From Bacteroides cellulosilyticus (GTDB lineage: Bacteria > Bacteroidota > Bacteroidia > Bacteroidales > Bacteroidaceae): a stretch of DNA of 64,000 bases. This document shows, one piece after another, positions 37,719 through 57,667 of the stretch (the first letter of the stretch is position 1; the number at the start of each line of letters is the position of its first letter). A program made the translations under genes and the position numbers. Location: positions 1,116,001-1,180,000 of the forward strand of contig NZ_CP081903.1 of the NCBI RefSeq assembly GCF_020091405.1. The letters run 5' to 3'. The notes under the pieces are model-generated. The model saw nothing but the letters and a program-made list of their open reading frames with translations, made no database searches and was not told the origin of the DNA.

Positions 37719-38057
37719 TTATTCCTCCTGCATAGCCTCAATTAAATCTATGGCTTTCTGAATATCAACAATACCACAACCATAAGGCAGTTCCGGAACA
37801 TCATATCTATTTGCTGACTTTTTCAAAATTTCCAATAATTCTTGATTAGTCAGCCAAGGGTAAGCTTGCCATAAACAGGCATACCATATGTCGTAAAAAT
37901 CACCTATCCCACCAGTTATGGCAACAGAGCCTACCACCAATATATTAGGAGAGTCTGTCAGAATCCCAACCCAACTCCCATCATTACCAGCACAACATGT
38001 AATAAAAATCCTCTTGCTTACAGCAATAATATCAGTCCGTGACGCAAATTTTACTAA
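37719..38057 (-). pseudogene. Relic of an S8 (subtilisin-type) peptidase
   Basis: An open stretch of about 112 codons, without a credible start, reads KRIFITCCAGNDGSWVGILT, then DSPNILVVGSVAI, and ends LTNQELLEILKKSANRYDVP with GCGIVDIQKAIDLIEAMQ. These match the late part of subtilases: the Asn oxyanion region (AGNDG), the following VxVGSV strand, and the C-terminal helices. The GTSxAxP block with the catalytic Ser is missing; only about 25 residues separate flanking parts that are normally 60-70 apart. The Asp and His regions are also absent. It is therefore a dead fragment next to the MACPF genes. Confidence 0.7.
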
Positions 38058-38130: not shown

Positions 38131-39561
38131 TTAGTTGGGAACATAACATTCGATATATTCACATTTCCATTCACCTTCCCCATAAGTTGGACTATAATTT
38201 GTATTATAATAATGATCCCTACCATTCCAAGCTTGGTACAATGGAAGAGCACCATCAGTAGGCCTATCATAAACATAACCAAGTACTCCTTCAAAGTTAT
38301 ACCCTTGATATCCTCCAGGATGATAACCAACTGTATAGTAATGATCTTTTCCATTCCAATACTGATAAAAAGGGACAGTTCCTTGAACCGGTTTTGAAAA
38401 TATACAAAAAGCGACATACTCATACTTCCAATCATTCTTTGCCCCATAAGTTGGGCTATAATTCGTATTATAATAATGATCTTTTCCATTCCACGATTGA
38501 TATACCGGTACAATAGGTAATATTTCTATCTTTTTGCTATCAATATATCTGAATACAGCTTCCTTTATTTGCTGTTTTTTCACAGGATCAGAAATTAGAT
38601 CATAAATAGGATACGTAGCATTCCAGTTGACATCAAACAATCTAGAATGCTGGTCATCAACCGATTCTGTCCATGCTCCCAAATTAATTGTAAAAGTTGG
38701 TCCTTGTTCGGGTACGAGCGTAATAGTAGTACCAGAAGTAGAACCACCAAGAGCCTTAATATAGCATTCCCAATTAGAATTTTTCTTATTGCGTTCCTCT
38801 ACTTCCGTTTTGCTCCATGAACCGTGAGCATCAAGTCCAATATTACTTAGATTATATTTTGCCCCAGCACTGACAATCTCTGTCTTTTCCGTACTACTAT
38901 TCTCTTCTATTATAGCAGATTTATAATATGCAGTATATTTTCCTCCAACTATTATATTAGTCAGAACATGCGTTCCATACATTTCCACAATTCGATCCGC
39001 AGAATACTTATTTAAATCTTCAATAAAAGAAGACAACAAATATTTAGATAAGGTTTCAATATCTGTATTCAGCAAATATCTTCTTTGCTTTTTAAAAACC
39101 TCCGCTCTAGCAAATGAGTATTTTGAAGAATAAGAATATTTTGAACTTGTTTTGAATCCCGTCGTTATAGTCCCTGAGAAAAAACCTTCTTTATCCTTTT
39201 TCTCTGGTAAAGAACCTACAGAACCACTAAAATTCGTATCGGTTATTATCTGAGATAAAAAAGATTGCGCATTTGCTCCTGCAAAACATCTTTGATCAAT
39301 TACCCCTGAAAATTGCTTATCAAATCTATTAGGATTTGCTTTCACAAATGCTTCTACATCTAAGATTTTCAACCTTGTTGAATTCTCGCCCATGTATTCA
39401 TCGGTTATATCATAGCCATAACCTAATACATCATACACTCCATCTCCAGCCGCCCTTGTTGTTACATTTGACACTAAAGATTCAACCTTTGGTAAATCCT
39501 CTATTTCTGAACAAGAATAGAAAAGAGGCAAAAAGCCCAATAAATAATAAGATTTCTTCAT
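38131..39561 (-). CDS. MACPF-domain lipoprotein with triple C-terminal repeat (BSAP-like)
   Basis: A lipoprotein signal (MKKSYYLLGFLPLFYSC, Cys17) is followed by SEIEDL, an acidic stretch that in Bacteroides favours surface export. The MACPF domain fills about residues 40-345. Its signature is YGTH (195-198) followed by GG (206-207), preceded by KKQRRYLLNTDIETLSKYL. The C-terminus holds three repeats of about 45 residues with W-N-G-[KR]-D-H-Y-Y cores. MACPF proteins form pores; Bacteroidales versions (BSAPs) kill related strains by binding an outer-membrane protein or LPS glycan. The gene is divergent from a close paralogue and 2 kb from a glycosyltransferase locus. Antimicrobial activity is inferred. 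Confidence 0.88.
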   Translation of the reverse strand: MKKSYYLLGFLPLFYSCSEIEDLPKVESLVSNVTTRAAGDGVYDVLGYGYDITDEYMGENSTRLKILDVEAFVKANPNRFDKQFSGVIDQRCFAGANAQSFLSQIITDTNFSGSVGSLPEKKDKEGFFSGTITTGFKTSSKYSYSSKYSFARAEVFKKQRRYLLNTDIETLSKYLLSSFIEDLNKYSADRIVEMYGTHVLTNIIVGGKYTAYYKSAIIEENSSTEKTEIVSAGAKYNLSNIGLDAHGSWSKTEVEERNKKNSNWECYIKALGGSTSGTTITLVPEQGPTFTINLGAWTESVDDQHSRLFDVNWNATYPIYDLISDPVKKQQIKEAVFRYIDSKKIEILPIVPVYQSWNGKDHYYNTNYSPTYGAKNDWKYEYVAFCIFSKPVQGTVPFYQYWNGKDHYYTVGYHPGGYQGYNFEGVLGYVYDRPTDGALPLYQAWNGRDHYYNTNYSPTYGEGEWKCEYIECYVPN

Positions 39562-39590
39562 GGTATTAATATTTAAAGTTTAACAATTAC

Positions 39591-39621
39591 CAAAAGTAAG
39601 AATATTCAATATTTAATCCAA
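39591..39621 (-). promoter_or_regulatory. Promoter of the minus-strand MACPF gene
   Basis: On the minus strand TTGG (39621-39618) and TACTTTTG (39598-39591) are separated by 19 bases, a full -7 match. The sequence after -33 (ATTAAAT) resembles the same place in the opposite promoter. Confidence 0.65.
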
Positions 39622-39764
39622 TTCAAAGAGTGTGTTTAGAAACATGAAATCAGAATGCGCCCTTGTCTTACATAACAATAGAAAAACCAACCTTCTGCAT
39701 GACAAATAGTTAGATTACATTTATTATTAAAATGAAATTCATGTTTATAAGCATGTTTAATTAA

Positions 39765-39795
39765 TTGGATTTAATCGCCAATATGCATACCTTCG
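39765..39795 (+). promoter_or_regulatory. Promoter of the plus-strand MACPF gene
   Basis: TTGG (39765-39768) and TACCTTCG (39788-39795) are separated by 19 bases, as in the opposite promoter. The -7 box has C in place of T in the TTTG part, so it is predicted to be weaker. Confidence 0.55.
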
Positions 39796-39824
39796 ATAAT
39801 TGTTAAACTTTAAATATTAATACC

Positions 39825-41267
39825 ATGAAGAAATTTTATTTTTTATTGGCAGTATTGCCTCTTCTTTATTCTTGTTCCCAAGAATATGAAGAATTAGATT
39901 CATTTTTAAATGAAAAGGTAGATCAAATTAACACACGAACTACCGGTGATGAAAAATATGATGTTTTAGGATATGGCTATGACATCACTGATGAATATTT
40001 AGGTGAAAATGCTGTAAAGCTACAGGTCATAAATGTCCAAGCATTTGTGAATGATGGTGACAATAAATATCGATTTGACAATCCATTTATTGGCATTATC
40101 GAGCAGAACTGTTATGCAGGGGAAAATGCTTACTCGTTTCTTGAGGACATAAGAACTAAAACTGATTTTAGTGGATCTGTAGCTTCTTTAATAGATGTGA
40201 AAAAAGATGGTTTTTTCTCAGGTACAGTTTCTACTAAACTTGAGTCTGATAAAAGATATTCATTTTCTACCAAATTTTCATATGCAAAAGCAGAAGTTAT
40301 AAAAAAGCAAAGAAGATACCTTCTAAACACAGATATAAACTCATTATCCAAATATTTAACCCCATCATTCTTATCAGATATTCAAAAATATTCAGCAGAC
40401 AAAATTGTACTCAAATATGGAACACATGTCTTGACAAACTTCACTGTTGGTGGGAAATACACAGGATTATATAAATCTGCTATCGTAGAAGAGAATAACC
40501 ATACTGAAAAAACAAAAACTGTAAGTGCAGGTGCTAAAGCTAATTTTTCAGGCATTGGACTTGATGCCAATGGATCATGGAGTACAACTAGCATACAAGA
40601 AAGCAATACTAAAAACTCCAATTGGCAACTTTTCATAAAATCACACGGTGGCTCCACATCAGGCACATCAATGACTATAAGTTCAACTCCAACATTCACC
40701 ATAAACTTAGGAGAATGGACAAATTCTGTGGATGACGCACATTCGGTATTGATATCTGTCAATTGGAACGCAACCTATCCAATCTATGATTTAGTCGAGG
40801 ACCCAGTAAAAAAAGAACAACTAAAAACAGCAGTTATTAATTACATTAATAGCAAGAGCGTTGAAGCTCTTGAAATAGTTCCTTTTTATCGATATTGGGG
40901 AAATGGAGAACATTATTTTGCGCAAGAGTATGCCCCAAAATTATGGTATGACCAATATACTTATGAACAAGTAGCATGCTATTTGTTAGCAAAGCAACAA
41001 AATGGAAGTGTACCTCTAAACCGATACTGGGGTGACGGAGAACATTATTATACTTTAGACTCAACGCCAACCTTATTAAACGGAAAATATAAACTTGAAG
41101 GAGTTGTTGGATACATTTATAGAAATCAAGTACCAGGTACTGTTCCTTTATACGTCTATTGGGGAAATGGTGAGCATCACTATGACTTACAATATGCACC
41201 TAAATTATGGTATGGTCAATATAAATATGAAGGAATTACTGGATACGTATACCCCATCAACGATTAG
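39825..41267 (+). CDS. MACPF-domain lipoprotein, paralogue of the divergent MACPF gene
   Basis: The product has 480 residues with lipoprotein signal MKKFYFLLAVLPLLYSC and acidic residues after Cys17 (SQEYEELD), favouring the cell surface. The MACPF signature is YGTH (198-201) then GG (209-210), with long stretches nearly identical to the neighbour (VLGYGYDITDEY, KKQRRYLLNTDI, WNATYPIYDL). The C-terminus again has three repeats, but the core is W-G-x-G-E-H instead of W-N-G-K-D-H, so the likely target-binding part has diverged more than the pore-forming part. A pore-forming antimicrobial role is inferred from BSAPs. A terminator lies 160 bases downstream, before the glycosyltransferase genes. 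Confidence 0.88.
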   Translation: MKKFYFLLAVLPLLYSCSQEYEELDSFLNEKVDQINTRTTGDEKYDVLGYGYDITDEYLGENAVKLQVINVQAFVNDGDNKYRFDNPFIGIIEQNCYAGENAYSFLEDIRTKTDFSGSVASLIDVKKDGFFSGTVSTKLESDKRYSFSTKFSYAKAEVIKKQRRYLLNTDINSLSKYLTPSFLSDIQKYSADKIVLKYGTHVLTNFTVGGKYTGLYKSAIVEENNHTEKTKTVSAGAKANFSGIGLDANGSWSTTSIQESNTKNSNWQLFIKSHGGSTSGTSMTISSTPTFTINLGEWTNSVDDAHSVLISVNWNATYPIYDLVEDPVKKEQLKTAVINYINSKSVEALEIVPFYRYWGNGEHYFAQEYAPKLWYDQYTYEQVACYLLAKQQNGSVPLNRYWGDGEHYYTLDSTPTLLNGKYKLEGVVGYIYRNQVPGTVPLYVYWGNGEHHYDLQYAPKLWYGQYKYEGITGYVYPIND

Positions 41268-41695
41268 TTTGCAATAAATAAGAAACACCCTAAAAGTTTC
41301 CTAAAATAAAATACGCCCCAGTTCATGCCAGGGGAGGTTTCTTAAAATAAATTCATACAAGTTTACAACTCTTATGTCTTTTTACCTTCCACTTAATCGG
41401 GGATATTCTCAAAAGCCACAAAGTTAAAGCCAACTAATTCATTGGGAGTTAGCTGGCTTTTTGTATCTTTAGATATTTCCCAAACAACACTGTTTGATAT
41501 AAAATGTCTTTATTATTAAAGCAAAATACATTAATTGTATCCACAAATATTTTATCTTTGCCAAATTAAGGTCAAAGTACTGTTTAGGCTCATTTATAGA
41601 CTAACAATATAAATGATATATCTAAGTTTACATTTGACATGTCTGACCCAATTACAACCATTACATTTAAGTAACCCAGTTTAAAACAATACGAT
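41268..41695. other. Gap between the MACPF and glycosyltransferase genes
   Basis: No gene is seen. A near-perfect 15-bp direct repeat (GTTTCCTAAAATAAA / GTTTCTTAAAATAAA) lies at 41296 and 41337. A terminator at 41426-41463 is followed by a -7-like TATCTTTG at 41553-41560 that may start the glycosyltransferase operon with a leader of about 130 bases; no clear -33 was found. Confidence 0.55.
41426..41463 (+). terminator. Terminator after the plus-strand MACPF gene
   Basis: AAAGCCAACTAA (41426-41437) pairs with TTAGCTGGCTTT (41449-41460) at 11 of 12 positions and runs into a T-stretch (41458-41462). Confidence 0.7.
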
Positions 41696-42658
41696 ATGAT
41701 TCGAAGCTTAAAAAACTATTTCGAAAGAAAAAATGAATTCTATACTGAAAGTCTGGAGTCCAGTTATACAAATTGGAACATTTTAGAACGTAAAGATTTA
41801 TATCTCAAAAAAATATCAGATCTTCAAAGAGAACAATCATCTCAGTTACTTGCTGAAAGAACTATTTTCCACGCTTACTGGCATGGAACCTTTGGTATCA
41901 AGCAAGCTTTCTCTATTAAAAGTCTGTTGTGTACACAAAATATGGAAAGTATAGAAATATGGCTATGGTTGGACTCAGAAAATGGATATACACAAATCGA
42001 GAGCAACTCATATCTACAAGAACTAAAAGGTCACATAAAAATATTGTCGTGGAACGTTGAAGACGAAATTAGTGATACTCCCTTTTCCAAAATTAAGACA
42101 TATATTAATGCCCCCAAGAATCTTGCAGCCAAGGGGGACGATTTTCGAATTATCTCTCTTTACAAATATGGAGGTTTATATTTCGATCTTGATGTTATGT
42201 TTTTGAAAGACTTCACTCCCCTATTAAAAGGCCATGAGTTTGTCTATGCATGGGAATACCAATCATATGCCAACAGTGCCATTCTATATTTACGCAAGAA
42301 TAGCTATATAACTAATTACTTAGCAAAGAAATTACAAAAAAGGAAAGCAGCAATGCCTTGGGTACTATTCAATTACAAAGATAAGAAATTAGAAAATCTA
42401 AGAAATTACCCTTGCGCTTTCTTTGATCCACTATGGGGAGGATATTGTGAGGGAATGCCTTTTAGAGAATTCTCTGACTTCTTTAGGGAATTCGACAAAG
42501 ATTATGCCAAAGATCCCAATATCAATAGTTACAAAGATTTCTTTCCGGGGGCATTCGCATATCATTGGCACAATAAGTGGGATGCTAAAGAGGTTGAAAA
42601 CTCATATTTTGGCCTATTCAATCATGAATTTAACAATATATTTACACTTCTACATTAA
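41696..42658 (+). CDS. GT32-type glycosyltransferase with DXD motif
   Basis: The 320-residue cytoplasmic protein resembles the Gly_transf_sug / OCH1 family. Diagnostic is KGDDFRIISLYKYGGLYFDL followed by DVMFLKDF, with DLD as the metal- and nucleotide-sugar-binding DXD motif. IFHAYWHGTF near residue 60 is the usual opening of this domain, and FFPGAFAYHWHNKW is a late conserved segment. It probably adds a hexose in glycan assembly. It is the first of four plus-strand genes that converge on the large minus-strand cluster at 45970. The sequence around it is AT-rich, suggesting acquired DNA. Confidence 0.85.
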   Translation: MIRSLKNYFERKNEFYTESLESSYTNWNILERKDLYLKKISDLQREQSSQLLAERTIFHAYWHGTFGIKQAFSIKSLLCTQNMESIEIWLWLDSENGYTQIESNSYLQELKGHIKILSWNVEDEISDTPFSKIKTYINAPKNLAAKGDDFRIISLYKYGGLYFDLDVMFLKDFTPLLKGHEFVYAWEYQSYANSAILYLRKNSYITNYLAKKLQKRKAAMPWVLFNYKDKKLENLRNYPCAFFDPLWGGYCEGMPFREFSDFFREFDKDYAKDPNINSYKDFFPGAFAYHWHNKWDAKEVENSYFGLFNHEFNNIFTLLH

Positions 42659-42891: not shown

Positions 42892-44025
42892 ATGAAACTC
42901 AGAATATTCAGAAGAAACAAGAAACGTCACTTTCTCTACTCCCTATTTAATAGAAAATGGGTATATATTTCATATATTCCCGATGTATATTACAATAAAA
43001 ATAATATAAAATACATGCTATCTCACCAGAATAAAAGAGAAGCGCTAGTTGTTGGCAATATATTTTACAGTTTAGGATATAATGTTAAGATTGCACTTTT
43101 CAATGCCCCTGAAGAATGCGATACTCGAAAGTATGATATCATATTTGGTTTAGAACCAAACTTCATAACCATGAGCCAAAGAAATCCCCAAGCTCTTAAA
43201 ATATACTATGCGACAGGAGCTTATTGGAAACATCAACTCACAATGGTAAAAAACAGGACAGACCTATTTAATACAAAACATGGAACACATTTACCATATT
43301 CGCGTTTAGTGGATGCGCATAACAGTTGCGAGATAGCTGACGTTATTTTTCAAATAGGAAGCTCATTTACTATCCAAACATATCCTTCCAAATTGCAGAG
43401 CAAAATTAATATAATTAATCAGTCTAGCAATTTTGTTCAAGAGTGTGCTCTAAAACATAAATTGCAAAGTGTCTCAATGAAGGATTTCATGTGGTTTGGC
43501 TCTAGTGGAAGTATTTTGAAAGGTTTAGATTTAGTTTTAGAGTATTTCATAGAGAACCCCCAATACAATTTGCATGTAGTCGGACCACTTGATGAGGAAT
43601 TCATAAGGTTCTATCAAAAGCAAATAGAAAAATGCCTCAATATAACATTTTACAATTTTCTCGATACCAGCTCCAAAGAGTTCATGGACTTAGCCTATCT
43701 TTGTGCTTTCAATATCTTTCCATCTGGTAGTGAAGGCTGCCCTGGCTCCGTCATAACTTTAATGCAAATGGGTGTCATCCCTATCACCTCTCAATGGGGA
43801 GCAATAGACCAAATAGAACATTACGGATATCTGTTACCTGAGTTATCCGTTGAAGCTATAAGCAAGGCCATTGAATGGGGAGTTACACTTCCCCAGGAAG
43901 AGTTCCATAAAATTATAGAGGAAAACATATCATATTCAAAAAATACTTGGAATTTAAAACGATTTGAGAATGAATTCCGCTCTCTATTACTAACATTTAT
44001 AGAAAAAAGTAATCAAAAAGCATGA
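42892..44025 (+). CDS. Glycosyltransferase, GT4-like (GT-B fold)
   Basis: The product has 377 residues. The N-terminal half binds acceptor (NKREALVVGNIFYSLGYNVK) and the C-terminal half binds the nucleotide sugar: FMWFGSSGSILKGLDLVLEY and FNIFPSGSEGCPGSVITLMQ with the E-G-x-P/C-G-S loop. This fits group-1 glycosyltransferases, though the E-x7-E motif is less standard than in its neighbours. The stop overlaps the next gene's ATG by four bases, so the two are coupled. Donor and acceptor sugars cannot be read. Confidence 0.75.
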   Translation: MKLRIFRRNKKRHFLYSLFNRKWVYISYIPDVYYNKNNIKYMLSHQNKREALVVGNIFYSLGYNVKIALFNAPEECDTRKYDIIFGLEPNFITMSQRNPQALKIYYATGAYWKHQLTMVKNRTDLFNTKHGTHLPYSRLVDAHNSCEIADVIFQIGSSFTIQTYPSKLQSKINIINQSSNFVQECALKHKLQSVSMKDFMWFGSSGSILKGLDLVLEYFIENPQYNLHVVGPLDEEFIRFYQKQIEKCLNITFYNFLDTSSKEFMDLAYLCAFNIFPSGSEGCPGSVITLMQMGVIPITSQWGAIDQIEHYGYLLPELSVEAISKAIEWGVTLPQEEFHKIIEENISYSKNTWNLKRFENEFRSLLLTFIEKSNQKA

Positions 44026-45161
44026 ATCAACCATATATCTTGTACGATTCTCAGATATTTGATTATCAGATATTCGGAGGTATCTCACGATATTTCTGTG
44101 AAATAATCCCCAGAATGAATATCACATTCGATATATCTGTACGATATTCTGAAAATATCTATTTGAAAGAATCTAAACTGTGCAAGCATCGCCTGCCTAT
44201 TCCAAAGTGGATATTCAATAAGTACAAAAATAAACTTCTCCAGAAGAATAGAAAATTCTCCGAGCACATGCTTAGATCATCTTCTGAATATTTGCTGCAT
44301 GCAACTTATTATGAACCATACTTCCTTGACTGGATAGGAAATAACCCTTATGTCATTACCGTACATGACATGATCTATGAAAAGTTGCCTGAATTCTTTT
44401 CAAAAGAAGACAGGGAGTTAAGCTTTGAGCAAAAGAAAAAAGTTGTTACGCAAGCGGATAGAGTTATTGCAATAAGCCAAAACACCAAGCAAGATATCAT
44501 AGATTTACTACATATTGCACCCGAAAAAATTGACGTCATATACCATGGAACCAATATGCAAAAGCCTACTCGAAAGGATTCCGTAACACTTCCCAAAAGA
44601 TTTATCTTATATGTTGGTACCAGATATTCCTACAAGAATTTCGCCCGTTTTGTCAAAGCCTTTTCTTTATTATCATCTAAAGACAAAGAGTTATATGCAA
44701 TATGTACTGGTAGCTCCTTTACTATGGATGAAAAGAAATTATTTGAATCACTAAATATCTCCCAAAAGCTTATGCACATTCAGGCTGCTGATACCTTACT
44801 ATATACGCTCTACAATCAGGCAGAAGCTTTCGTATTTCCATCGCTTTATGAAGGTTTTGGCATTCCTATCATAGAAGCTTACGCCTGTCTTTGTCCGGCT
44901 ATCATAAGCAATACCAGCTGCTTTCCTGAGATAGCAGCAGATGCTGCTGCATATTTTAATCCATATTCCGAGATAGAAATGGCAGATACCATTGCAAGTG
45001 TTATATACAACCACGCTCTGCGCGCAGAGCTTATCCATAAAGGATCCGAACAATTGAAATTATATTCTTGGGAAAAAGCTGCGTCTCAAACAAAAGAAGT
45101 ATATTTGAAGGCCTTGAAAGAAAACAAAAGCAAAAAAGAAAGAAAAGAAGAGATATGGTAA
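44022..45161 (+). CDS. Glycosyltransferase family 4
   Basis: The 379-residue GT-B enzyme shows the standard group-1 pattern: YVITVHDMIYEKLPEFF, DRVIAISQNTKQDIIDLL, RFILYVGTRYSYKNFARFVK, and AFVFPSLYEGFGIPIIEAYA containing the E-x7-E motif (E-G-F-G-I-P-I-I-E). It resembles mannosyltransferase-type enzymes in polysaccharide loci. It overlaps its neighbours on both sides (4 bases upstream, 7 downstream), so it belongs to one operon. Confidence 0.9.
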   Translation: MNQPYILYDSQIFDYQIFGGISRYFCEIIPRMNITFDISVRYSENIYLKESKLCKHRLPIPKWIFNKYKNKLLQKNRKFSEHMLRSSSEYLLHATYYEPYFLDWIGNNPYVITVHDMIYEKLPEFFSKEDRELSFEQKKKVVTQADRVIAISQNTKQDIIDLLHIAPEKIDVIYHGTNMQKPTRKDSVTLPKRFILYVGTRYSYKNFARFVKAFSLLSSKDKELYAICTGSSFTMDEKKLFESLNISQKLMHIQAADTLLYTLYNQAEAFVFPSLYEGFGIPIIEAYACLCPAIISNTSCFPEIAADAAAYFNPYSEIEMADTIASVIYNHALRAELIHKGSEQLKLYSWEKAASQTKEVYLKALKENKSKKERKEEIW

Positions 45162-45970
45162 AGCCAGTGCTTAGTATTATTACAGTCAATTTTAACAACA
45201 ATTTGGGGCTACAAGAAACATTACGTAGCATTCAATCACAATCATTTACAGATTATGAGCATATCATCATAGATGCCAACTCTACAGACGGAAGTGCAGA
45301 AACTATTGCTAAGTATGCTGCAGAAACTCCTCACCTATCATACTGGGTATCCGAACCAGACAAAGGAGTCTATGACGGCATGAATAAAGGAATCGCACAT
45401 GCCAAAGGAGAATATATCTTCTTTCTAAACTCCGGAGACTTTCTATTTGACGGCAATGTCTTAGATTCCATCCCTTTTGATGGAACCAACTATATTTGTG
45501 GGAATCTAAGAATGGTGTATTCAAATACAGAATATGAAGATATAATTCCTCCCGAAGAAGTAGATGGTTTGTTTTTGCTAAAAAGTTTTCTACCACACCC
45601 TGCCTCTTTTATACATCACTCGCTATTCGAAAGCCAAACTTACAGAACAGATTATAGAATCGTATCAGACTGGATACATATGGTTGACAATATCGTATTA
45701 AAAGGATGCAGCTATAAGCATGTCAACATCCTGATATCCAACTTCGATAGTACAGGACTTAGCTCCACCAACGGTTCCATTGGACTCTATGAGCGCAACA
45801 GATGGATAAAAGAAAATATTCCCGCCCGTATCTATGCTTCCTTAATGGAACTGGACAACCTCAAAAATTCAATATTAGGAAGCATCATTCCAATGGCCAA
45901 TGAAAAGAAACGTCGTACACAAAAGCGAATGAAAAAGGCGGTCCTATTGCTCTCAAAAATACTTAAATAA
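45155..45970 (+). CDS. Glycosyltransferase family 2
   Basis: The start at 45155 yields MVKPVLSIITVNFNNNLGLQ, the usual GT2 opening; a longer frame from 45068 lies inside the previous gene. IIDANSTDGSAETI is the nucleotide-binding part and GEYIFFLNSGD the variant DXD region (NSGD). At 271 residues it is a single GT-A domain without membrane helices, similar to the WcaA/PgaC-like sugar transferases in O-antigen clusters. It is the last plus-strand gene; only 9 bases separate its stop from the stop of the convergent cluster. Confidence 0.88.
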   Translation: MVKPVLSIITVNFNNNLGLQETLRSIQSQSFTDYEHIIIDANSTDGSAETIAKYAAETPHLSYWVSEPDKGVYDGMNKGIAHAKGEYIFFLNSGDFLFDGNVLDSIPFDGTNYICGNLRMVYSNTEYEDIIPPEEVDGLFLLKSFLPHPASFIHHSLFESQTYRTDYRIVSDWIHMVDNIVLKGCSYKHVNILISNFDSTGLSSTNGSIGLYERNRWIKENIPARIYASLMELDNLKNSILGSIIPMANEKKRRTQKRMKKAVLLLSKILK

Positions 45971-45979
45971 AATATAGAC

Positions 45980-47107
45980 TCAAATAATTTCATAGAATCG
46001 CGCCATTGTCTCATCAATATTGAAGATATTGGAGCGAGATAAACTTTTTTCCTGATATTCCTTGCAAAGGGTGGTACTATCGACCAGTTTCTTTATAGCT
46101 TCATATATAGATGCATCATCATGTTCTGTTAATATGCCATATTTACCATTTTCCAGCAACTCCATCCCTCCTGAGGTTTTTGTAGCAACCACTGGAATTC
46201 CAAGCACCAAAGCTTCACATATCACATAAGAAAGCCCTTCGGACAGCGAAGTACTAACAAATATATCTGATTGCCTTAAATAAGGATAAGGGTTTTCTTC
46301 AAATCCTAAAAATACCACATCTTCCTGTAAGCCCAATTCATCACGCATTCGAAGCAAAGATTCAAATTCCTTCCCTTGCCCCAGAATTTGAAAACGTAAA
46401 GCATAACCTTTATCTTTAAATAGCTTAGCTACTCTTACCAGACGATCATATCCCTTAACTTTATAGAGGCTACCAATAGAAGTTATTGTAAATCTATCGT
46501 GCATCACGACCTTTTGCTTAGCCAACCTGCGGATATTCTCCGCATCTACAATATTGTATAGATGCATTTTATCATTTGACGTTTCGTACAATCTATTAAA
46601 AGACTCCATTGAGTTACGAGAAACAAACACGATCTTATCCATCTTCTCATAGCATCGTTTTTCATCATGATCGCTATGATAATAGGCCGTCGTCCAATGC
46701 TGGTAATATAAATCGCAATGAATCCAACTAATATTGAGTTTAGCCCATTTACAAATGGTACTATGAAACAATATAGGATAACCTTCTATGAACGATATTA
46801 TAGTATCAAAATGATGTTTCTTACATTTCTGCCTAAATAAAAACTTTAGCAGCCAAGTATTACCATACTTCTTACAATATCTTAACGCCTTTCTTCTCAA
46901 AGAAGATTCAAAAGAAGTCTCATTATCAGAAAAGATATGAAAAAGGTTAACTTGAGAAGGAATCTCCTTAGTATATATTCCACCAGCAAATACGACTCCT
47001 AAAGTAACATTATATCGGGCATAGTCTATATGCTTCAACAATTCAACCAAAGCTCGCTCTGCTCCACCGCCAAACAACCCTTCTATTATAAATAAAACAT
47101 CTTTCAT
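45980..47107 (-). CDS. Glycosyltransferase family 4, tandem copy 2
   Basis: The 375-residue GT-B enzyme opens MKDVLFIIEGLFGGGAERAL, with the glycine-rich acceptor loop. The donor-binding part contains FTITSIGSLYKVKGYDRLVR and FVSTSLSEGLSYVICEALVL with the E-x7-E motif. It is a close paralogue of the upstream gene at 47117-48223: whole motifs such as SIGSLYKVKGYDRLLR and FLGFEENPYPYL are shared. The two are 9 bases apart and clearly arose by tandem duplication, probably now adding different or repeated sugars. It is the last gene of the minus-strand cluster. Confidence 0.9.
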   Translation of the reverse strand: MKDVLFIIEGLFGGGAERALVELLKHIDYARYNVTLGVVFAGGIYTKEIPSQVNLFHIFSDNETSFESSLRRKALRYCKKYGNTWLLKFLFRQKCKKHHFDTIISFIEGYPILFHSTICKWAKLNISWIHCDLYYQHWTTAYYHSDHDEKRCYEKMDKIVFVSRNSMESFNRLYETSNDKMHLYNIVDAENIRRLAKQKVVMHDRFTITSIGSLYKVKGYDRLVRVAKLFKDKGYALRFQILGQGKEFESLLRMRDELGLQEDVVFLGFEENPYPYLRQSDIFVSTSLSEGLSYVICEALVLGIPVVATKTSGGMELLENGKYGILTEHDDASIYEAIKKLVDSTTLCKEYQEKSLSRSNIFNIDETMARFYEII

Positions 47108-47116
47108 ATCTTCTCC

Positions 47117-48223
47117 CTAAATTAAGCTATACACACTCTTCATTGCTTCATCTACATTGAACATCTCCGCCCGAATTAGTGATTTCAAGTGATATTCGTC
47201 TCTTGATTCTTCGTTATCAATCAGCTTCCTAAGCCCTTCATAAATTGAAATATCATCCTGTCCTGTCAGAATTCCATATTTGCCATTATCTAAAAGTTCA
47301 ATAGCACCGGCTGTTTCAGTAGCTACTACAGGTATACCCAAAACAAAGGCTTCACAAATCACATAAGGAAGACCTTCAGACAATGAAGTACTGACAAATA
47401 GATCTGTTTTTTTCAAATAAGGATAAGGATTCTCCTCAAATCCTAAAAAAAGCACCTCTTCTTCTAACCCCAATTCGTTCCGCAAGGTCAGCAGATTATC
47501 CAATTCTGATCCGCAACCTAGTATTTGGAAAGAAAGGGAATAACCATTGTTTTTTAACATTTTTGCAACACGAAGCAAGCGGTCATATCCCTTCACTTTA
47601 TATAAGCTACCAATAGAAGTTATAGTGAATACATTTCCAGTAACATTTTCTTCTCCAGCTTTTTCTTTAATTTCTTTTGCATCAACCACATTGTATAAGC
47701 ACTCTTTAGGCGTATTCACCAGATACAACTTATCAAAGTTCTCCTTTGCAGTATTAGAAACAAAAATTACGCAATCAACATCTTCATAACATTTTCTTTC
47801 CAAACTCGAACTATAAAAACAGTCAGAAGTCGGGTAGTTCAACAAGTCACGATGTACCCATGTTACATTCCTATCAGCTCTCTTCATTACAAAACTATGA
47901 AATAATAAAGGCCAGCCTTCCATAAAAGAGATAATTGTATCATAATGCCGTTGTAACTTACGCCTTATCTGAAAAGACATAAGCCAAGAATTATGATATT
48001 TTCGATAATAACGAAAAGACTTTCTTCGAAAAGAGTTGTTTTGGGTATATAACGGAATAACCGTAACGTTTTCAGGAATATCCTTTAAATAAAGACCTTG
48101 ATAGAACAAGAGACAAAGCGATACACGATAACGTGTATAATCAAAATTTTTAAGATATTCAATCAAAGCCTTTTCCGCTCCTCCTCCATCCAAGGATTCC
48201 ATAATGAATAATACATCTTTCAT
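47117..48223 (-). CDS. Glycosyltransferase family 4, tandem copy 1
   Basis: The 368-residue GT-B enzyme opens MKDVLFIMESLDGGGAEKAL and carries VFTITSIGSLYKVKGYDRLL and DLFVSTSLSEGLPYVICEAF, the E-x7-E donor region. It shares most conserved blocks with its downstream copy but has diverged in the N-terminal acceptor half. Its ATG overlaps the stop of the upstream GT2 gene by four bases. Confidence 0.9.
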   Translation of the reverse strand: MKDVLFIMESLDGGGAEKALIEYLKNFDYTRYRVSLCLLFYQGLYLKDIPENVTVIPLYTQNNSFRRKSFRYYRKYHNSWLMSFQIRRKLQRHYDTIISFMEGWPLLFHSFVMKRADRNVTWVHRDLLNYPTSDCFYSSSLERKCYEDVDCVIFVSNTAKENFDKLYLVNTPKECLYNVVDAKEIKEKAGEENVTGNVFTITSIGSLYKVKGYDRLLRVAKMLKNNGYSLSFQILGCGSELDNLLTLRNELGLEEEVLFLGFEENPYPYLKKTDLFVSTSLSEGLPYVICEAFVLGIPVVATETAGAIELLDNGKYGILTGQDDISIYEGLRKLIDNEESRDEYHLKSLIRAEMFNVDEAMKSVYSLI

Positions 48224-49197
48224 TTTTTCTTAGAGCAATGGGTTAAATAGTACAGAGGCCAAAAATAGGATATTTTCCGTAAGCGCTTATAACTCTGAGG
48301 ATCAACAACATCCTTGGATAAAGAAAGGAAATCATGCAACCGTAACTTCATAGCTTTCATTTCTTGCTTATATAAAGTATGATTAGGTTTTCGAATAAAC
48401 GTATTGAAAATCCACAAACAATGCCCTACTACTCTAGCTGTTAATATCCCGCGTTCTTTAGTATTAAAGAGAGTTGTGTTCTCAACAAAAGCTAATCTGT
48501 CATATTCTGCTAAAAAATAATCATACAACTTCCTCAAATCTGGACTATGGCAAATACTTCCTTCCCTCTGCAAATAATTATAATATGACTTATCTATCCA
48601 ACCTATTTTTTTACATTTTGAAGCCCATTTATAAACAGTTAAATGATCTTCATAACATACGCCTTCAGGGAAAGTAAATGAATCGAACAAATCCCTTTTA
48701 AATAGTTTTGTACAAGAAGAACTACTAACTTTATCTAGTAAGATATCTCGTACAACATCTTTAGGCATCAAAGAGTATATTTTACCAGAATTTGGATACA
48801 ACTGTTCTTTATGTCCATCTGCATATTCATAACAATAATTACAATAGGACATATCAGCTCCACAAGAAACCAATGTCTTTAACAAATCTTCATACATTGT
48901 CGCTTCAATCCAGTCATCGCTATCAACAAAACCAATATAAGGAGCTACACTGGCAGCAATGCCAGCATTTCTTGCAACAGAAAGGCCAGCAACAGTTAAA
49001 TGAAGTGTCCTTATACGAGAATCCACTAAAACGTAATCATCACAAATCTGTGCTGATCCATCACTAGAAAGATTATCTACTAAAATAATCTCAATATCTT
49101 TCAAAGTCTGATTACGAACAGATTCCACACAACGCTTTAGATAAGCCGCTGTATTATGTACCGGTATAATTATAGCAACCTGAGGCATACTTTTCAA
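48220..49197 (-). CDS. Glycosyltransferase family 2
   Basis: The 325-residue enzyme opens with QVAIIIPVHNTAAYLKRCVE and has IEIILVDNLSSDGSAQICDD and PYIGFVDSDDWIEATMYEDL, the DXD-type metal site. The C-terminal region (KRDLFDSFTFPEGVCYEDHL, then YLQREGSICHSPDL) matches the GT2 subgroup common in Bacteroides surface-glycan loci. It belongs to the same subgroup as the genes at 50345 and 51360. It is translationally coupled to the GT4 gene downstream. Confidence 0.88.
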   Translation of the reverse strand: MKSMPQVAIIIPVHNTAAYLKRCVESVRNQTLKDIEIILVDNLSSDGSAQICDDYVLVDSRIRTLHLTVAGLSVARNAGIAASVAPYIGFVDSDDWIEATMYEDLLKTLVSCGADMSYCNYCYEYADGHKEQLYPNSGKIYSLMPKDVVRDILLDKVSSSSCTKLFKRDLFDSFTFPEGVCYEDHLTVYKWASKCKKIGWIDKSYYNYLQREGSICHSPDLRKLYDYFLAEYDRLAFVENTTLFNTKERGILTARVVGHCLWIFNTFIRKPNHTLYKQEMKAMKLRLHDFLSLSKDVVDPQSYKRLRKISYFWPLYYLTHCSKKK

Positions 49198-49228
49198 CTT
49201 TATCTTTTACAAAAACAACAATTAATAT

Positions 49229-50314
49229 TCAAACGATACTGATATATTTTTTTATCACTTCCAAATAACGCTTTCCATAGCGCAAATCCGGCTCCAGATA
49301 ATTTCCTTCCCCCCACTCATTCCATGATTTCACAAAAGCAAGACGATGCTCCAAAGGTTTATTTTCAATACGTGCAATCACATCTTTCACATGCCGGTCA
49401 AAATAGGCTGGTTCTGCATGATTCAATACCAATGCCTTATTTAAAGAACGAGGTGAATGATCCCAATTGGGAATGATTGTTGGTATAATTTCAGGGGCAT
49501 ACTCTTCATCTCCAACAAAAAAACGACTCACTTTCTTGTACTCCATAATTTTAGGACAACGAAAAATCCGATGCCTCCACTTGGCACATTTATAAAGAAA
49601 CTTTGCTTTCTTTTCAAAATCAAACAAACGTGTTACATTAATAGCATCAAATCCCATATCCATCAATTCGGTTCTTTCCTCCGTCAAATGATATGTTTGA
49701 CCTATGAAAAAAATACCTTTCAAACCATTATTCATAGCTAATTTCTGCCACAAAGCCATAAACTCTTTTATCTGCGGATGTTGAAAAGGTTGATAAATCA
49801 TGAAAACAGGTTTATCATCTACTGTTATGTAACGAGGATCTTTAAAAGCAGGCAACACTGTTTCAAAGTGGGCTATATAATCGTCTTCTCCTGGATAAAG
49901 CTGGGTAATCAACGCCTGTTTGGTTTTTACTCCATGAAAAAAGCCTTTCCACGACTCATTGGCCCAAGCTAGGCAAAAAGGAAAATCTGGCTTACCAGAA
50001 GCCAATACCTCATTAAAAGGACGTTCTAATAATCGCTTACCATTCCCAAACCAATAGTGCCAATAACAAAATCCTTCTATGCCGTATTCTCTCGCCATAT
50101 CAGCCTGAGCCTGACGAGTCTCGGGAACTCTCAAATCATAATAACCTAAGTCTGCCGGAACTTTAGGCTGATAATGCCCCGGAAATAATGATCGTGCTTT
50201 CCCTACATTAGTCCATTCGGTAAAACCCTTCATCCACCATTCATCATTTTCAGGTATCGGATGAAACTGGGGGAGATAAAATGCAATAACTCTTGCTTTA
50301 TTTATTGTATTCAT
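49229..50314 (-). CDS. WbsX-like (GH99-type fold) glycan-locus protein
   Basis: The 361-residue protein opens ARVIAFYLPQFHPIPENDEW and continues GFTEWTNVGKARSLFPGHYQ, the WbsX signature. FLPF-type strands and FVKSWNEWGEGNYLEPD near the end complete the GH99-like barrel. WbsX proteins are frequent in O-antigen and capsule loci; they are called glycosyltransferases or hydrolases, but their reaction is unproven. It lies between GT2 genes on the minus strand and is probably part of one transcript. Confidence 0.88.
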   Translation of the reverse strand: MNTINKARVIAFYLPQFHPIPENDEWWMKGFTEWTNVGKARSLFPGHYQPKVPADLGYYDLRVPETRQAQADMAREYGIEGFCYWHYWFGNGKRLLERPFNEVLASGKPDFPFCLAWANESWKGFFHGVKTKQALITQLYPGEDDYIAHFETVLPAFKDPRYITVDDKPVFMIYQPFQHPQIKEFMALWQKLAMNNGLKGIFFIGQTYHLTEERTELMDMGFDAINVTRLFDFEKKAKFLYKCAKWRHRIFRCPKIMEYKKVSRFFVGDEEYAPEIIPTIIPNWDHSPRSLNKALVLNHAEPAYFDRHVKDVIARIENKPLEHRLAFVKSWNEWGEGNYLEPDLRYGKRYLEVIKKYISIV

Positions 50315-50344
50315 TATATCTTAATTTCCTTTAGTAATCTATTA

Positions 50345-51331
50345 TTATGCTTGAGGTATCTTCTTCCCAGACTTAAAAAATAAGTTCATCGAACGATAAA
50401 CACTCAGATTTTGATATAGCAGACAGCGTTTCAAAAGAAATAGGAAATCCACTTGAGGCCATCTTACATCCTTAAATTCCTGCATTTTAGCTATTATATC
50501 TTTTATTATGGAATCAAGTTGTGGAGAAGAAGGAAGCATGAGAATTTTATCAATCGAATGTATTCCATATTTATGTACATAACGAGGTGCCTTATGCCAT
50601 ATTCCATTTGCTTGCACAAACTTCACCTGCTCATATATCCGCAAGAACCACAAATATTCTTTTTGTGGATCATACTGCTTATCCAGAACTGTACTCCCCT
50701 CACGACGCAAATAATGATATTTCGGACAATCTTGCATGACTATCCGGCGTACCTTATGAAAAACACGGTAGCAAACGGCCATATCTTCAAATATCTGATT
50801 TTCAGGAAAGCGTATTCCAGAAAATGCTTGTCGTTTAAACAATTTATCCCATATATAATTCCTTACCCGCTTATCAATAACTAAGGCTCGTATGGCCTCA
50901 TCACTTGAAAAAGAAGTGAGTGTCCCCGATGAATAGCGTACTTTAGTCCGGGTAGTCGTCTCTATATAATGAGCACACACGGATATATCTGCATCATTAT
51001 CTACCAACAAATGATATAGAAATTCATACATATCAGGATCAATCCAGTCATCACTATCCACAAAACCAATATATTCGCCTCGGGCAATGGTCAATCCTTC
51101 ATTTCTCGCACAACTTTGCCCTTTGTTTACCTGATGAATCACTTTGATCCGACTATCTGTTTCAGCAAACATATCACATATTTCTCCCGATCCATCAGTA
51201 GACCCATCATCCACCACAATAATCTCAAGATTCTGATAGGTCTGTCCACAGACTGAACGTAAACACTTTTCCAAGTATTCGTTTACGTTATATACTGGTA
51301 TGATAATACTTATTAAAGGTAAACCTTCCAT
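50345..51331 (-). CDS. Glycosyltransferase family 2, tandem copy
   Basis: The start at 51331 (MEGLPLISIIIPVYNVNEYL) is chosen over one at 51400, which lies inside the upstream gene. The GT-A domain has IIVVDDGSTDGSGEICDMFA and YIGFVDSDDWIDPDMYEFLY, with the DXD-type D-S-D-D. The C-terminus (FEDMAVCYRVFHKVRRIV, YHYLRREGST) is shared with the next gene upstream, and the two are tandem paralogues. The length is 328 residues. No membrane segment is present. Sugar specificity is unknown. Confidence 0.9.
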   Translation of the reverse strand: MEGLPLISIIIPVYNVNEYLEKCLRSVCGQTYQNLEIIVVDDGSTDGSGEICDMFAETDSRIKVIHQVNKGQSCARNEGLTIARGEYIGFVDSDDWIDPDMYEFLYHLLVDNDADISVCAHYIETTTRTKVRYSSGTLTSFSSDEAIRALVIDKRVRNYIWDKLFKRQAFSGIRFPENQIFEDMAVCYRVFHKVRRIVMQDCPKYHYLRREGSTVLDKQYDPQKEYLWFLRIYEQVKFVQANGIWHKAPRYVHKYGIHSIDKILMLPSSPQLDSIIKDIIAKMQEFKDVRWPQVDFLFLLKRCLLYQNLSVYRSMNLFFKSGKKIPQA

Positions 51332-51359
51332 ATTACTCACTTTATTTGCAGACAAATTC

Positions 51360-52358
51360 TCAAAAGCGATGACTTTTCGACTTAAATATTGACCTGACAA
51401 AACGATAGACAGAACGATATCTCGAAAGATTATGATAAATAGCCCAACGCTTTATAGCAATAGCCATACCAATCTGTCGAAACGAAATATCATTGTACTG
51501 ATGCATTTTACTGAGCACATCTCTTACTATTTCTTCTGCAACAGGCGAAAGAGGCACAAGCATTATATGATCTATAAGATGTACTCCACTCCGAATAATA
51601 AATACAGGTGCTTTATTCCACAACTGTTTTTCCTGAATAAAAGTACATTGTTCGTATACAGCCAGAAACATATGATATTCTTTTTCGGGATTATATTTAC
51701 TTCCTGTTATACTATTAGTACGCACCATATAATGATACTTGGGATGCCCTTTCATTACAATTTTCCGTGCTTGATAAAACACCTTGTACATGACAGCAAT
51801 GTCCTCAAAATAACGCCCCTGCGGAAATCTCAATTCACGAAACAAAGTCCTTCTGTAAAGTTTATCCCACGCAAAATTTCGAATAATATCATCCTCAACT
51901 AAAAGGCGCATAGCATCGCGAGGCACTAAATTCAAAACCTCATCCGAGTTATATTTTATCTTTGTCCTACCCGATCTTTCAATATAATGTGAACAGATTG
52001 ATATATCCGCCTCCTCTGTCTCCAGCAGCTCATACAAAAACTTGAACATATCAAGATCAATCCAGTCATCACTATCTACGAAACCGAGAAACTCTCCCGT
52101 AGCTGCATCCAAACCTTCATTCCGGGCTGCACTCAAACCTCCGTTTTTACGATGAATTACCTTTATCCGTCTATCTTTTGAAGCATAAGTATCACAGATT
52201 TCCCCGGAGCCATCAGTCGAACCATCGTCCACCACAACTATCTCCAGATTCTTATAAGTTTGCCCACAGATAGAGTCAAGACATTTCTCCACATAATCCT
52301 TCACATTATAAACCGGTACTATAATGCTTATTAAAGGTAATGCTCTCGTTTCATCCAT
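51360..52358 (-). CDS. Glycosyltransferase family 2, tandem copy
   Basis: The 332-residue enzyme opens with LPLISIIVPVYNVKDYVEKC and carries VVVDDGSTDGSGEICDTYAS and FLGFVDSDDWIDLDMFKFLY. The C-terminal half has FPQGRYFEDIAVMYKVFYQA and YHYMVRTNSITGSKYNPEKE. It is a tandem paralogue of the following gene; the catalytic domains are far more alike than the C-termini, suggesting divergence in acceptor choice. Its start overlaps the upstream GT2 stop by eight bases. Confidence 0.9.
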   Translation of the reverse strand: MDETRALPLISIIVPVYNVKDYVEKCLDSICGQTYKNLEIVVVDDGSTDGSGEICDTYASKDRRIKVIHRKNGGLSAARNEGLDAATGEFLGFVDSDDWIDLDMFKFLYELLETEEADISICSHYIERSGRTKIKYNSDEVLNLVPRDAMRLLVEDDIIRNFAWDKLYRRTLFRELRFPQGRYFEDIAVMYKVFYQARKIVMKGHPKYHYMVRTNSITGSKYNPEKEYHMFLAVYEQCTFIQEKQLWNKAPVFIIRSGVHLIDHIMLVPLSPVAEEIVRDVLSKMHQYNDISFRQIGMAIAIKRWAIYHNLSRYRSVYRFVRSIFKSKSHRF

Positions 52359-53166
52359 TATTCTCTTTATATGCTTTATCTTCTTTCACGATCCCATTCT
52401 CACACCATATCGTCTTCTCCTCAATAACTTGTCTCAACACCTGTTCGTGATATTCCAAATTCTCCCGTGAAGCAAATTTGTGATAGAGATGAAATTGTAC
52501 CCCCCCCATCTTCAATTGCTTCTTTTGGATACCTGCATGGATTAATCGATAGGAAATTTCCACATCTTCCTGTCCCCACATCTCCAGAGACTCATTATAA
52601 CCGTTAACACGGAACAAATCTTCTTTCCAGAAAGCCATATTACAGCCCCGGATTCTCAGCATGCTATTCTTGGCATAACGATTTGCCAAATACAAACGTA
52701 AAGTGTGTGAACGGAAAGCGTTCAACAAAAAGCTAAGGTCTTGTTTAAAAAGTGCAGGATGAGTTTCCACCCCTCTAAGTAACCGGGCAGTAGCCATTCT
52801 CCCCAAAAGCACCCGACTGCCACATACAAAGTATCCCTTCTCCGCCAATTCCAGATGGTCAGCGATAAAGTGCCTATCCAAAAGGATATCACCATCAATC
52901 TGGATAATATAATCCCCCTTCGCCCTTTCAATGGAGCGATTACGGATAGCGGAAAGACGGAAACCTTTGTCCTCGTGCCATACATGCACAATAGGAATAT
53001 CGGTCTTTGCCCGCATCTTATCAATCAGCTGCTTGGTGTCGTCACGTGAGCCATCATCTGCAATCAGAATCTCACAAGGCTTCACGGTCTGAGCGAAAGC
53101 GCTGTACAGACATAGGGACAAGGCCTCTTTCCAATTATATGTAGATATCATTAATGAGACTAACAT
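52351..53166 (-). CDS. Glycosyltransferase family 2 (galactosyltransferase-like C-terminus)
   Basis: The 271-residue protein opens VSLMISTYNWKEALSLCLYS, with ILIADDGSRDDTKQLIDKMR and DYIIQIDGDILLDRHFIADH (DGD metal site). NMAFWKEDLFRVNGYNESLE and WGQEDVEISYRLIHAG form the C-terminal Glyco_transf_7C-like block with the catalytic E-D. Enzymes of this type in LPS loci often add hexoses to the core. It is 22 bases downstream of the cytidylyltransferase gene. Confidence 0.9.
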   Translation of the reverse strand: MLVSLMISTYNWKEALSLCLYSAFAQTVKPCEILIADDGSRDDTKQLIDKMRAKTDIPIVHVWHEDKGFRLSAIRNRSIERAKGDYIIQIDGDILLDRHFIADHLELAEKGYFVCGSRVLLGRMATARLLRGVETHPALFKQDLSFLLNAFRSHTLRLYLANRYAKNSMLRIRGCNMAFWKEDLFRVNGYNESLEMWGQEDVEISYRLIHAGIQKKQLKMGGVQFHLYHKFASRENLEYHEQVLRQVIEEKTIWCENGIVKEDKAYKENNG

Positions 53167-53188
53167 GTATCAATTCTTTAATTCAACT

Positions 53189-53683
53189 TCATTTTTTCTG
53201 ATCTTCCGGCCAATTATAATCTAATTCAGCCTCACGTTGTAGCGCTGCCCTGATAATCTCACTTGTACTCTCTATTATTTTCTTCTTAATACCTGTAGTG
53301 CTTACATCGGGAGTATAAGGAAAATAAACCACTTCCTTACCGGGCTGTTGCTTCATCCACTCAAGCCCCTCCAGATACTTATTTATCCAATCATCCCCAA
53401 TGGTTACTATATCAATATCTTCTCTCTGTAATTGTGCCACCTCAGTAAGCTTCACTTGCTTCACAGCTTTAGTCACACACTTCAAAGACGAGATAATCCG
53501 GAAACGTTGTTCAAAGGGAATAATAGGCGGCATTCCTTTGTAATGCTGTATCAGCTCATCTGTGCTTACGCCGACTATAAGTTCATCGCCCAATGCCGCC
53601 GAACGTTCCAATATGTTCAGATGCCCGATATGAAACAGGTCAAAACTACCGGATGTGAATACTCTGATTTTCTTTCTTTCCAT
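53189..53683 (-). CDS. TagD-like cytidylyltransferase
   Basis: The 164-residue enzyme is expected to join CTP with a phospho-alcohol (glycerol-3-phosphate in TagD) to give a CDP-alcohol. The HxGH motif is in FTSGSFDLFHIGHLNILERS, and ELIVGVSTDELI, PFEQRFRIISSLKCV and DVSTTGIKKKI (variant of R-T-x-G-I-S-T-S) follow family order. It lies between a class V aminotransferase and GT2 genes. Together with the aminotransferase and the CDP-glycerol-transferase-like gene it may form a cassette for adding a phospho-(amino)alcohol to the glycan. The true substrate may differ from glycerol phosphate. Confidence 0.85.
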   Translation of the reverse strand: MERKKIRVFTSGSFDLFHIGHLNILERSAALGDELIVGVSTDELIQHYKGMPPIIPFEQRFRIISSLKCVTKAVKQVKLTEVAQLQREDIDIVTIGDDWINKYLEGLEWMKQQPGKEVVYFPYTPDVSTTGIKKKIIESTSEIIRAALQREAELDYNWPEDQKK

Positions 53684-53694
53684 ATTATATAGAT

Positions 53695-54768
53695 TTATCG
53701 GTATTCTATTTCTTTAATTCTCTTTGCCAGATCATCCAGATCCTCTTCACTTTGAACTCCCAAATGAGAAACCCTGAAATAACAAGGAGTGCCACCCGGC
53801 ATAATGAATATGTCTTGCTTCAACAATTCATTAAAGAGAATATCCCCATTCCGGCGGACAAAGAACCCCGTAATGCAATTGGATGGTACTTCCGCCGGAA
53901 CTTCCCAACCATTCTGTCTGCACAGCTCACGAAAATACAGTGCTTTAGCACGCACGGAAGCAATGATTTTGTCAACCCCAAGGAGTACATTCTCCTTTAA
54001 ACGGGCATGCAATTGCATAAACAAACTGGTGGCCGGACTGTAAGGTGTCTGACCGCGTTCCAGATTCTTCAGATTCTCAGCAAAATCAAAATAATAAGAT
54101 TTATGCAAAAAATCAGTCTGTAGGATTCTAGGCGAAAGAAACAGAAACGACAAACCCGGGGCTATATTCAGCCCCTTCTGACTACTGGTAATACAGATGT
54201 CAATATTCAACTCTTCCATATCCAAATCATCGGACAAGAAAGAACTAATAGCATCAACAACCAGCGAAACATTATGTTTCCTGCAAATAGCAGAAATTTT
54301 CTTTAAATCAAACAGTTGACCGGTAGAGGTTTCATGATGTTGACATAAAAACACATCCGGACGCGAAGCAGCCACAGCATTTTCCAGCCGGGCATAATCA
54401 ATATCACGAGCAAAAGGAACTTCAAAAACTTCATTCTGAACCTGATAGTACTCGCAGAGACTCTTCCAGCGGTAGCCGAATGAACCGCCGGCTATAATAA
54501 AAGCTTTCTTTTTCAGGGAAACATAATTGGTAACCACAGCATCCATCGCACCGGTTCCTGAAGCAGTATAGAAGATAACACGACCGCCTGGACAATGTAT
54601 CAGCTCCAGCAACATACGCTCTGAGTCTTTCACTATTTCAGAAAACAAAGCAGTGCGCATATACGGAAAAGGTTCTCCTGCGATTCGAAGAATCCGCTCT
54701 TCTATATTTCCCGGAAAAACATAAGATTTCATATTTCTGCTTTTTAATAATTCTACATTACTTTTCAT
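53695..54768 (-). CDS. Class V PLP-dependent aminotransferase
   Basis: The 357-residue protein resembles alanine-glyoxylate and 2-aminoethylphosphonate transaminases. IFYTASGTGAMDAVVTNYVS is the PLP-phosphate region, FLCQHHETSTGQLFDLKKIS and VVDAISSFLSDDLD the cofactor-binding part (Asp), and ITSSQKGLNIAPGLSF holds the PLP-Lys. The ATG at 54768 is used; a GTG one codon earlier is possible. The start shares one base with the upstream stop (TGATG), so it is coupled to the CDP-glycerol-transferase-like gene. No phosphonate-forming PEP mutase is in the window, so aminoethylphosphonate is not supported directly. Confidence 0.85.
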   Translation of the reverse strand: MKSNVELLKSRNMKSYVFPGNIEERILRIAGEPFPYMRTALFSEIVKDSERMLLELIHCPGGRVIFYTASGTGAMDAVVTNYVSLKKKAFIIAGGSFGYRWKSLCEYYQVQNEVFEVPFARDIDYARLENAVAASRPDVFLCQHHETSTGQLFDLKKISAICRKHNVSLVVDAISSFLSDDLDMEELNIDICITSSQKGLNIAPGLSFLFLSPRILQTDFLHKSYYFDFAENLKNLERGQTPYSPATSLFMQLHARLKENVLLGVDKIIASVRAKALYFRELCRQNGWEVPAEVPSNCITGFFVRRNGDILFNELLKQDIFIMPGGTPCYFRVSHLGVQSEEDLDDLAKRIKEIEYR

Positions 54769-55817: not shown

Positions 55818-55825
55818 ACTTCTCT

Positions 55826-56572: not shown

Positions 56573-56632
56573 ATTTTACTCTGCCTTCACCTTTTTAGAC
56601 GGTCCCGTCATTCTAAAATATTTATCCATCAT

Positions 56633-57664: not shown

Positions 57665-57667
57665 TCG

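Follow-up and report, generated by a model that had tools for sequence, protein, structure and literature searches.

Divergent MACPF genes of probable BSAP type beside a lipopolysaccharide glycan locus in Bacteroides cellulosilyticus, one of them with an apparently exchanged C-terminal tip

The acquisition of a MACPF gene together with replaced lipopolysaccharide (LPS) glycosyltransferases has reportedly been described by McEneany et al. in 2018. Among the Bacteroidales secreted antimicrobial proteins (BSAPs), the C-terminal domain (CTD) of BSAP-1 alone sets receptor binding, and these domains differ greatly from one BSAP to another, so that a modular architecture is already known (PMC12853789). 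Tips of the DUF5648 type form CTD group 1, which comprises the O-antigen-targeting BSAP-2, BSAP-3 and M068_0191 (PMC12853789); the BSAP-2 gene adjoins the resistant O-antigen locus, and the acquisition of toxin genes with resistant LPS genes is a published pattern (PMC4999547). Natural exchange of the tip on one body finds no mention under the terms looked for in PMC12853789, and may have been published elsewhere. The present work deals with two divergent MACPF genes, here called A and B, and with the glycan locus beside them, in a stretch of 64,000 nucleotides of Bacteroides cellulosilyticus (the window; assembly GCF_020091405.1, contig NZ_CP081903.1, positions 1,116,001 to 1,180,000). Judging from their sequences, the pair most likely belongs to a known kind, that of the BSAP-type, LPS-linked MACPF toxins, which would act by killing; of special note are a resident toxin that has apparently received another tip and, next to it, a passenger gene which most likely arrived in company with its glycosyltransferase.

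Gene A (38131..39561, minus strand) encodes a putative lipoprotein of 476 amino acids, in which a pore-forming MACPF body (residues 41-341; 38539..39441, minus strand) is followed by a DUF5648 tip of three repeats (residues 342-476 and the stop codon; 38131..38538, minus strand). Gene B (39825..41267, plus strand) encodes 480 amino acids with the same architecture, its DUF5648 tip running from about residue 343 to the end (40851..41267, plus strand). Both proteins, which are 56% identical over 479 columns, exceed the Pfam cut-offs for MACPF (PF01823; 47.2 bits for A and 49.4 for B, cut-off 21.5), with which the fold of A agrees, and for DUF5648 (PF18885; 40.7 and 35.5 bits, cut-off 25). Their tips are the only DUF5648 matches of the genome at E <= 0.1, and no silent tip cassettes were found at this threshold. 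A lipobox-like Cys17 stands behind a signal-like N-terminus and is followed by acidic residues in both, as judged by eye; in an alignment of 34 MACPF proteins, neither Cys17 nor the G-T-H of YGTH varies. Against the BSAP5a family (NF053771 of NCBIfam), A and B score 84 and 83 bits, below the curated cut-off of 500. With A as the tblastn query, no match was found in the plasmid collection or in the phage collection.

The adjoining stretch from 41696 to 58348 holds 17 open reading frames (ORFs), all with Pfam matches, twelve of which belong to glycosyltransferase families (one being GT9); the other five match a cytidylyltransferase, an aminotransferase, a glycerophosphotransferase-like protein, a Kdo/WaaP-kinase-like protein (a weak match of 23 bits, cut-off 21.3) and DUF4254. 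Export, flippase and polymerase families are absent from the Pfam matches of these ORFs at E <= 0.001. The initial annotation of this DNA, with whose coordinates for the two divergent ORFs ours agree, had described paralogous, divergent MACPF lipoproteins beside LPS-type genes, and the ORFs, the Pfam scores, the degree of identity and the 17-ORF neighbourhood bear this out. Its further proposal, that these are BSAP-type, LPS-linked toxins, is favoured by the architecture, the location and the DUF5648 class common to BSAP-2 and BSAP-3. To that description can be added the DUF5648 tips themselves, the mirrored leaders of the two genes and a subtilase remnant downstream of A. As in BSAP-2, BSAP-3 and M068_0191, a putative MACPF lipoprotein with a DUF5648 tip is found with an LPS glycan locus (PMC12853789, and PMC4999547 for BSAP-2), a likeness of class and not of sequence alignment; unlike in these systems, one locus holds two such genes in divergent orientation, and A has an apparently exchanged tip on a fixed body.

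The association with LPS genes extends beyond the window. When 158 genomes of the genus were searched with B, 39 MACPF rows were obtained in 26 genomes, 22 of which also have a DUF4254 match; 18 of the 39 rows, in 13 of the 22 genomes, lie within 40 kb of DUF4254 (five same-contig rows farther away than 40 kb being kept in the counts), while 1-2% would be expected for one random site, so the proximity exceeds chance. The suggestion that two toxins occur here where usually one is described lost its force, since the pair is not exceptional: in 3/13 linked genomes the LPS locus has several MACPF genes (two in the genome of the window, two in G032 and three in G060). In G011, a single broken gene accounts for both rows. 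The wider search at the family level, which scored only three first-look candidates per genome, yielded matches at E <= 1e-20 in 12 genomes out of 399, of which nine belong to the same genus, and in the scan of named genomes B alone confirmed none, while the alignment A2 gave 25 loci.

The evidence for an exchange in A comes from four close genomes, namely that of the window, G153 (B. timonensis), G006 (B. cellulosilyticus) and G032, the last three of which match the window in flanking blocks longer than 4 kb at 91.6-97.2% DNA identity. A is present in all four, and its body (residues 41-341) is 95-99% identical among them; the tip of the window's A shares 53% identity with the tips of G153 and G032 and 21%, over 85 readable columns, with the partly masked tip of G006, and three tip types occur among the four genomes. 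Synonymous divergence (dS) against G153 and G032 rises from 0.02-0.09 for the body to 1.17 for the tip, and against G006 from 0.22-0.27 to 1.10; since synonymous sites change as much as the others, replacement and not only fast amino-acid change is implied. In 50-bp windows against G153, identity stays at 92-100% from 39463 to 38614, then passes to 90, 86 and 60%, the tip lying at 54-74%, and this sharp fall takes place near 38500-38610. Furthermore, the trees conflict: the body of A groups with G153 and G032 (support 97/98), and the tip with that of a MACPF protein of G060 (94/87), the two tips sharing 71-72% protein identity and, over 469 bp, 74% DNA identity, the bodies being 36% identical. 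These comparisons indicate that the tip of A was replaced by recombination on a stable body, in one direction or the other. A second case is found in G024 (B. ihuae) and G143, where the bodies are 92% identical over 280 columns and the tips 34% over 143, and where DNA windows fall from 84-100% to 32-56%. Body and tip identities are correlated (0.60, 231 pairs), so that tips usually travel with their bodies and exchange is the exception.

The glycan genes of the same four genomes behave differently in their two parts. The conserved LPS block (52351..58348, minus strand: GT2/7, cytidylyltransferase, aminotransferase, glycerophosphotransferase-like, kinase-like, GT9 and DUF4254 genes) shows 96.6-100% protein identity, while the variable outer glycosyltransferase genes (42892..52358) form a different set in each genome. 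The first six outer genes of G153 and G006 are 92-96% identical before diverging, and what G032 has in common with G153, apart from A and the conserved block, is a single gene at 84% and a pair of distant homologues. In addition, G153 and G032 carry DNA-identical A tips with different outer glycosyltransferases, and G153 and G006, with their six early genes in common, carry different A tips. The presence of A in all four genomes with four different outer sets means that no single LPS allele is required for its occurrence; on these sequences, A tip and LPS type are not locked together, a descriptive statement on four genomes with no statistic attached. The locus is flanked by the gene at 31744 and by pdxB, as seen in the maps of G040, G060, G024 and G146, which extend to both flanks, and in the three closest relatives.

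The situation of B is another one. Among the four close genomes it occurs in that of the window only; its position is taken in G032 by a different MACPF gene, likewise divergent and with 37% identity to A, while no MACPF gene stands there in G153 or G006. The alignment with the latter two genomes stops at 39646, in the A leader, and restarts at 42638, leaving a segment (39653..42637, plus strand, between the A leader and the gene at 42892) which has no close match in these genomes and which holds B and a glycosyltransferase gene with a DXD motif (PF04488; 41696..42658, plus strand), the candidate self-protection gene for B, whose family we take to be GT32. At this position, G153 and G006 have a GT8 gene of 305 amino acids. 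The GT32-type gene is rare (3/158 genomes at E <= 1e-10, that of the window included), and in G014 a copy 63% identical is found away from an LPS locus; in G040 it stands directly after the match of gene 33783 (G040:C2:642106-658930; L136, L137). The fact that B sits with the GT32-type gene where relatives have GT8 suggests that a toxin and a changed glycan most likely arrived together, B being most likely a passenger gene that came with its glycosyltransferase; this arrangement, known from one genome, fits the published pattern of toxins acquired with resistant LPS genes. The presence of a GT32-type gene with B in the place of GT8 is also like the acquisition attributed to McEneany et al., from which it differs in having a resident A, with or without a passenger. 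Exchange together with LPS genes, which the initial annotation had put forward for both MACPF genes, has partial support: the single segment speaks for it in B, in one genome only, and the four outer sets, with one identical tip on two of them, speak against it in A. Within these four genomes, A does occur with unrelated LPS alleles, the finding named beforehand as contrary to the proposal.

Taken together, we regard it as likely that A and B are DUF5648-class BSAPs aimed at the LPS glycan, that B arrived with a glycosyltransferase and that A exchanged its tip. Several points weigh against this. B was found in one genome, and in G040 the GT32-type gene (81% identical) lies at an LPS locus whose mapped stretch holds no MACPF gene, so that this glycosyltransferase can occur without a toxin, a further difference from the acquisition of McEneany et al. 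The support joining the tips of A and G060 (94/87) is below the mark of the tool, and in the second case the G143 gene is interrupted by a stop close to its beginning. The LPS-linked MACPF proteins do not form one clade (5 changes, with 61/500 shuffles as low), and in G145 and G038 the close relatives of the G032 passenger gene, which belong to the same clade, have no glycan genes as neighbours. Moreover, a BACUNI_00959-type MACPF protein of B. uniformis likewise stands beside an O-antigen locus, and no antimicrobial activity of it was detected (PMC4999547). This last example, the consideration of capsules and protein glycans as further BSAP targets (PMC12853789) and the independence of A from an LPS allele would suit the idea that A and/or B are not LPS-directed killers, being either inactive remnants or directed at another surface molecule or at eukaryotic cells. 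We hold this to be unlikely, in view of the open reading frames of both genes, the constrained body of A (non-synonymous divergence, dN, of 0.004-0.023 among the close genomes), the putative promoters and the combination of the DUF5648 class with an LPS locus.

Some loci of the genus deserve separate mention. Bacteroides sp. GM023 has its three MACPF genes at one LPS locus (G060:C12:997064-1020900; L041, L042), and B. faecalis has a broken MACPF gene, with several stops, at such a locus (G011:C1:89164-90565; L062). The MACPF proteins of L023 (G005) and L024 (G154), of 670 and 656 amino acids, also have glycosyltransferase genes as neighbours; their C-terminal part is longer and does not resemble DUF5648, which makes it another tip type in the same setting. 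The genome of the window has a third MACPF gene (350 amino acids; G000:C1:2090382-2091434, L168), which shares 95% identity with the second member of a MACPF tandem in G153 (L091:7876-9414 and 9573-10619); the first and longer member did not turn up here in a stretch of 14 kb.

The position of A and B as divergent neighbours with mirrored leaders and similar promoters, as well as the tandem arrangement of a longer and a shorter MACPF gene at another place in the genus (G153, L091), could point to the subunits of one hetero-oligomeric pore working only together. The genes of a two-component MACPF toxin would be expected to co-occur, and A is found without B in all three other close genomes, two of them without any second MACPF gene at the locus; the architectures of A and B are, moreover, the same and not complementary, which makes a joint pore improbable.

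It is still less probable that rapid adaptive evolution, with no replacement, made the tip of A what it is. Tips are the most variable part of these proteins and the repeats within a tip change together, as such a process might produce: within-protein likeness of the repeats exceeded between-protein likeness in 17/19 proteins (mean 0.39 versus 0.16, and 0.09 after shuffling; 22 proteins, three near-duplicates having been dropped). The synonymous sites, however, jump as well, the drop of identity is sharp, the tip of A is closer to that of a distant protein and the neighbouring subtilase gene is cut in the same stretch. Of the latter, a remnant is left at 37720..38026 (minus strand), while an intact gene of 548 amino acids follows A in G153 (L037:11249-12895, minus strand; this copy was tested and belongs to Peptidase_S8) and in G006 (G006:C62:594630-596276, minus strand), and is absent in G032. 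Three similar sites changing together fit, on these comparisons, a glycan-binding module. A first repeat measure was dropped, as between-protein values (34.2 and 32.6) were not separated from shuffles (33.9), the within-protein value being 45.5. Foldseek with the tip model gave no match at E <= 0.001; the C-terminal part of the Aegerolysin-L pore (9uj0) has 11% identity to the tip at a Foldseek E of 0.31, at most a similar arrangement, and the B. thetaiotaomicron MACPF protein Bt_3439 (3kk7) has C-terminal domains of another group (PMC12853789). The tip profile, compared with the sequences of solved structures, matched only IFT122 entries (E 0.016, no stretch passing alone), which was taken as chance.

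The leaders of A (39509..39648, minus strand) and B (39738..39877, plus strand) are inverted arms of 140 nucleotides, 81% identical, and with such arms the stretch between the genes could be imagined as an invertible, promoter-swapping switch, which is hardly credible, each gene having its own putative promoter at an equal distance and the arms being homologous leaders of paralogues that run into coding sequence. These promoters lie at about 39591-39621 for A and about 39765-39795 for B, each 29 nucleotides from the start, and we take them to be of Bacteroides type. Upstream of B stands the palindrome CATGTTTATAAGCATG (39740..39755, plus strand), with a degenerate counterpart at 39631-39646 upstream of A. 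The pattern ATGTTTATAARCAT is found 83-85 nucleotides upstream of six MACPF genes of two clades, namely B (39740-39755), A of G153 (G153:C42:34690), A of G006 (G006:C62:598130), A and the second gene of G032 (G032:C1:1109116 and 1109641) and a gene of G038 (G038:C9:162922). These six are among 24 distinct sites in the 158 genomes, where the pattern shows no overall excess (18 forward versus 19 backward-control matches), and the upstream regions of 14/22 MACPF genes have no good copy (3 or more mismatches). The palindrome is possibly a shared operator of MACPF genes.

The sequences themselves show the architecture, the location, the segment with B and the GT32-type gene, and the replacement of the A tip. 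As to how the system would work, we infer killing, an LPS receptor, immunity and a change of target in the following way. A and B would be exported as surface lipoproteins; the three-repeat tip would bind the LPS glycan of sensitive relatives, and the MACPF body would then assemble a pore in the outer membrane of the target. The producer, we propose, would be spared, since the glycan made by its own glycosyltransferases is not recognised by the tips. The GT32-type gene and B would have arrived together, bringing a changed glycan, and A would be the resident toxin, in which recombination exchanged only the tip and left the body almost unchanged, and which would thereby gain another target. More generally, we incline slightly to the view that BSAPs of LPS loci are naturally retargeted by exchange of the C-terminal tip alone, independently of the exchange of a toxin plus glycosyltransferase: a resident, re-tippable A would recombine at the MACPF/DUF5648 boundary beside a changing passenger (B here, an unrelated gene in G032), possibly under a shared palindromic operator.

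If the exchange of the tip does change the target, a gut bacterium could re-aim its weapon without building a new one, and the sister genomes, with the same body and different tips or with an identical tip and different LPS genes, would be natural alleles with which the published idea that the C-terminal domain chooses the receptor could be tested. That toxin type and LPS type need not correspond strictly would then also have an explanation.
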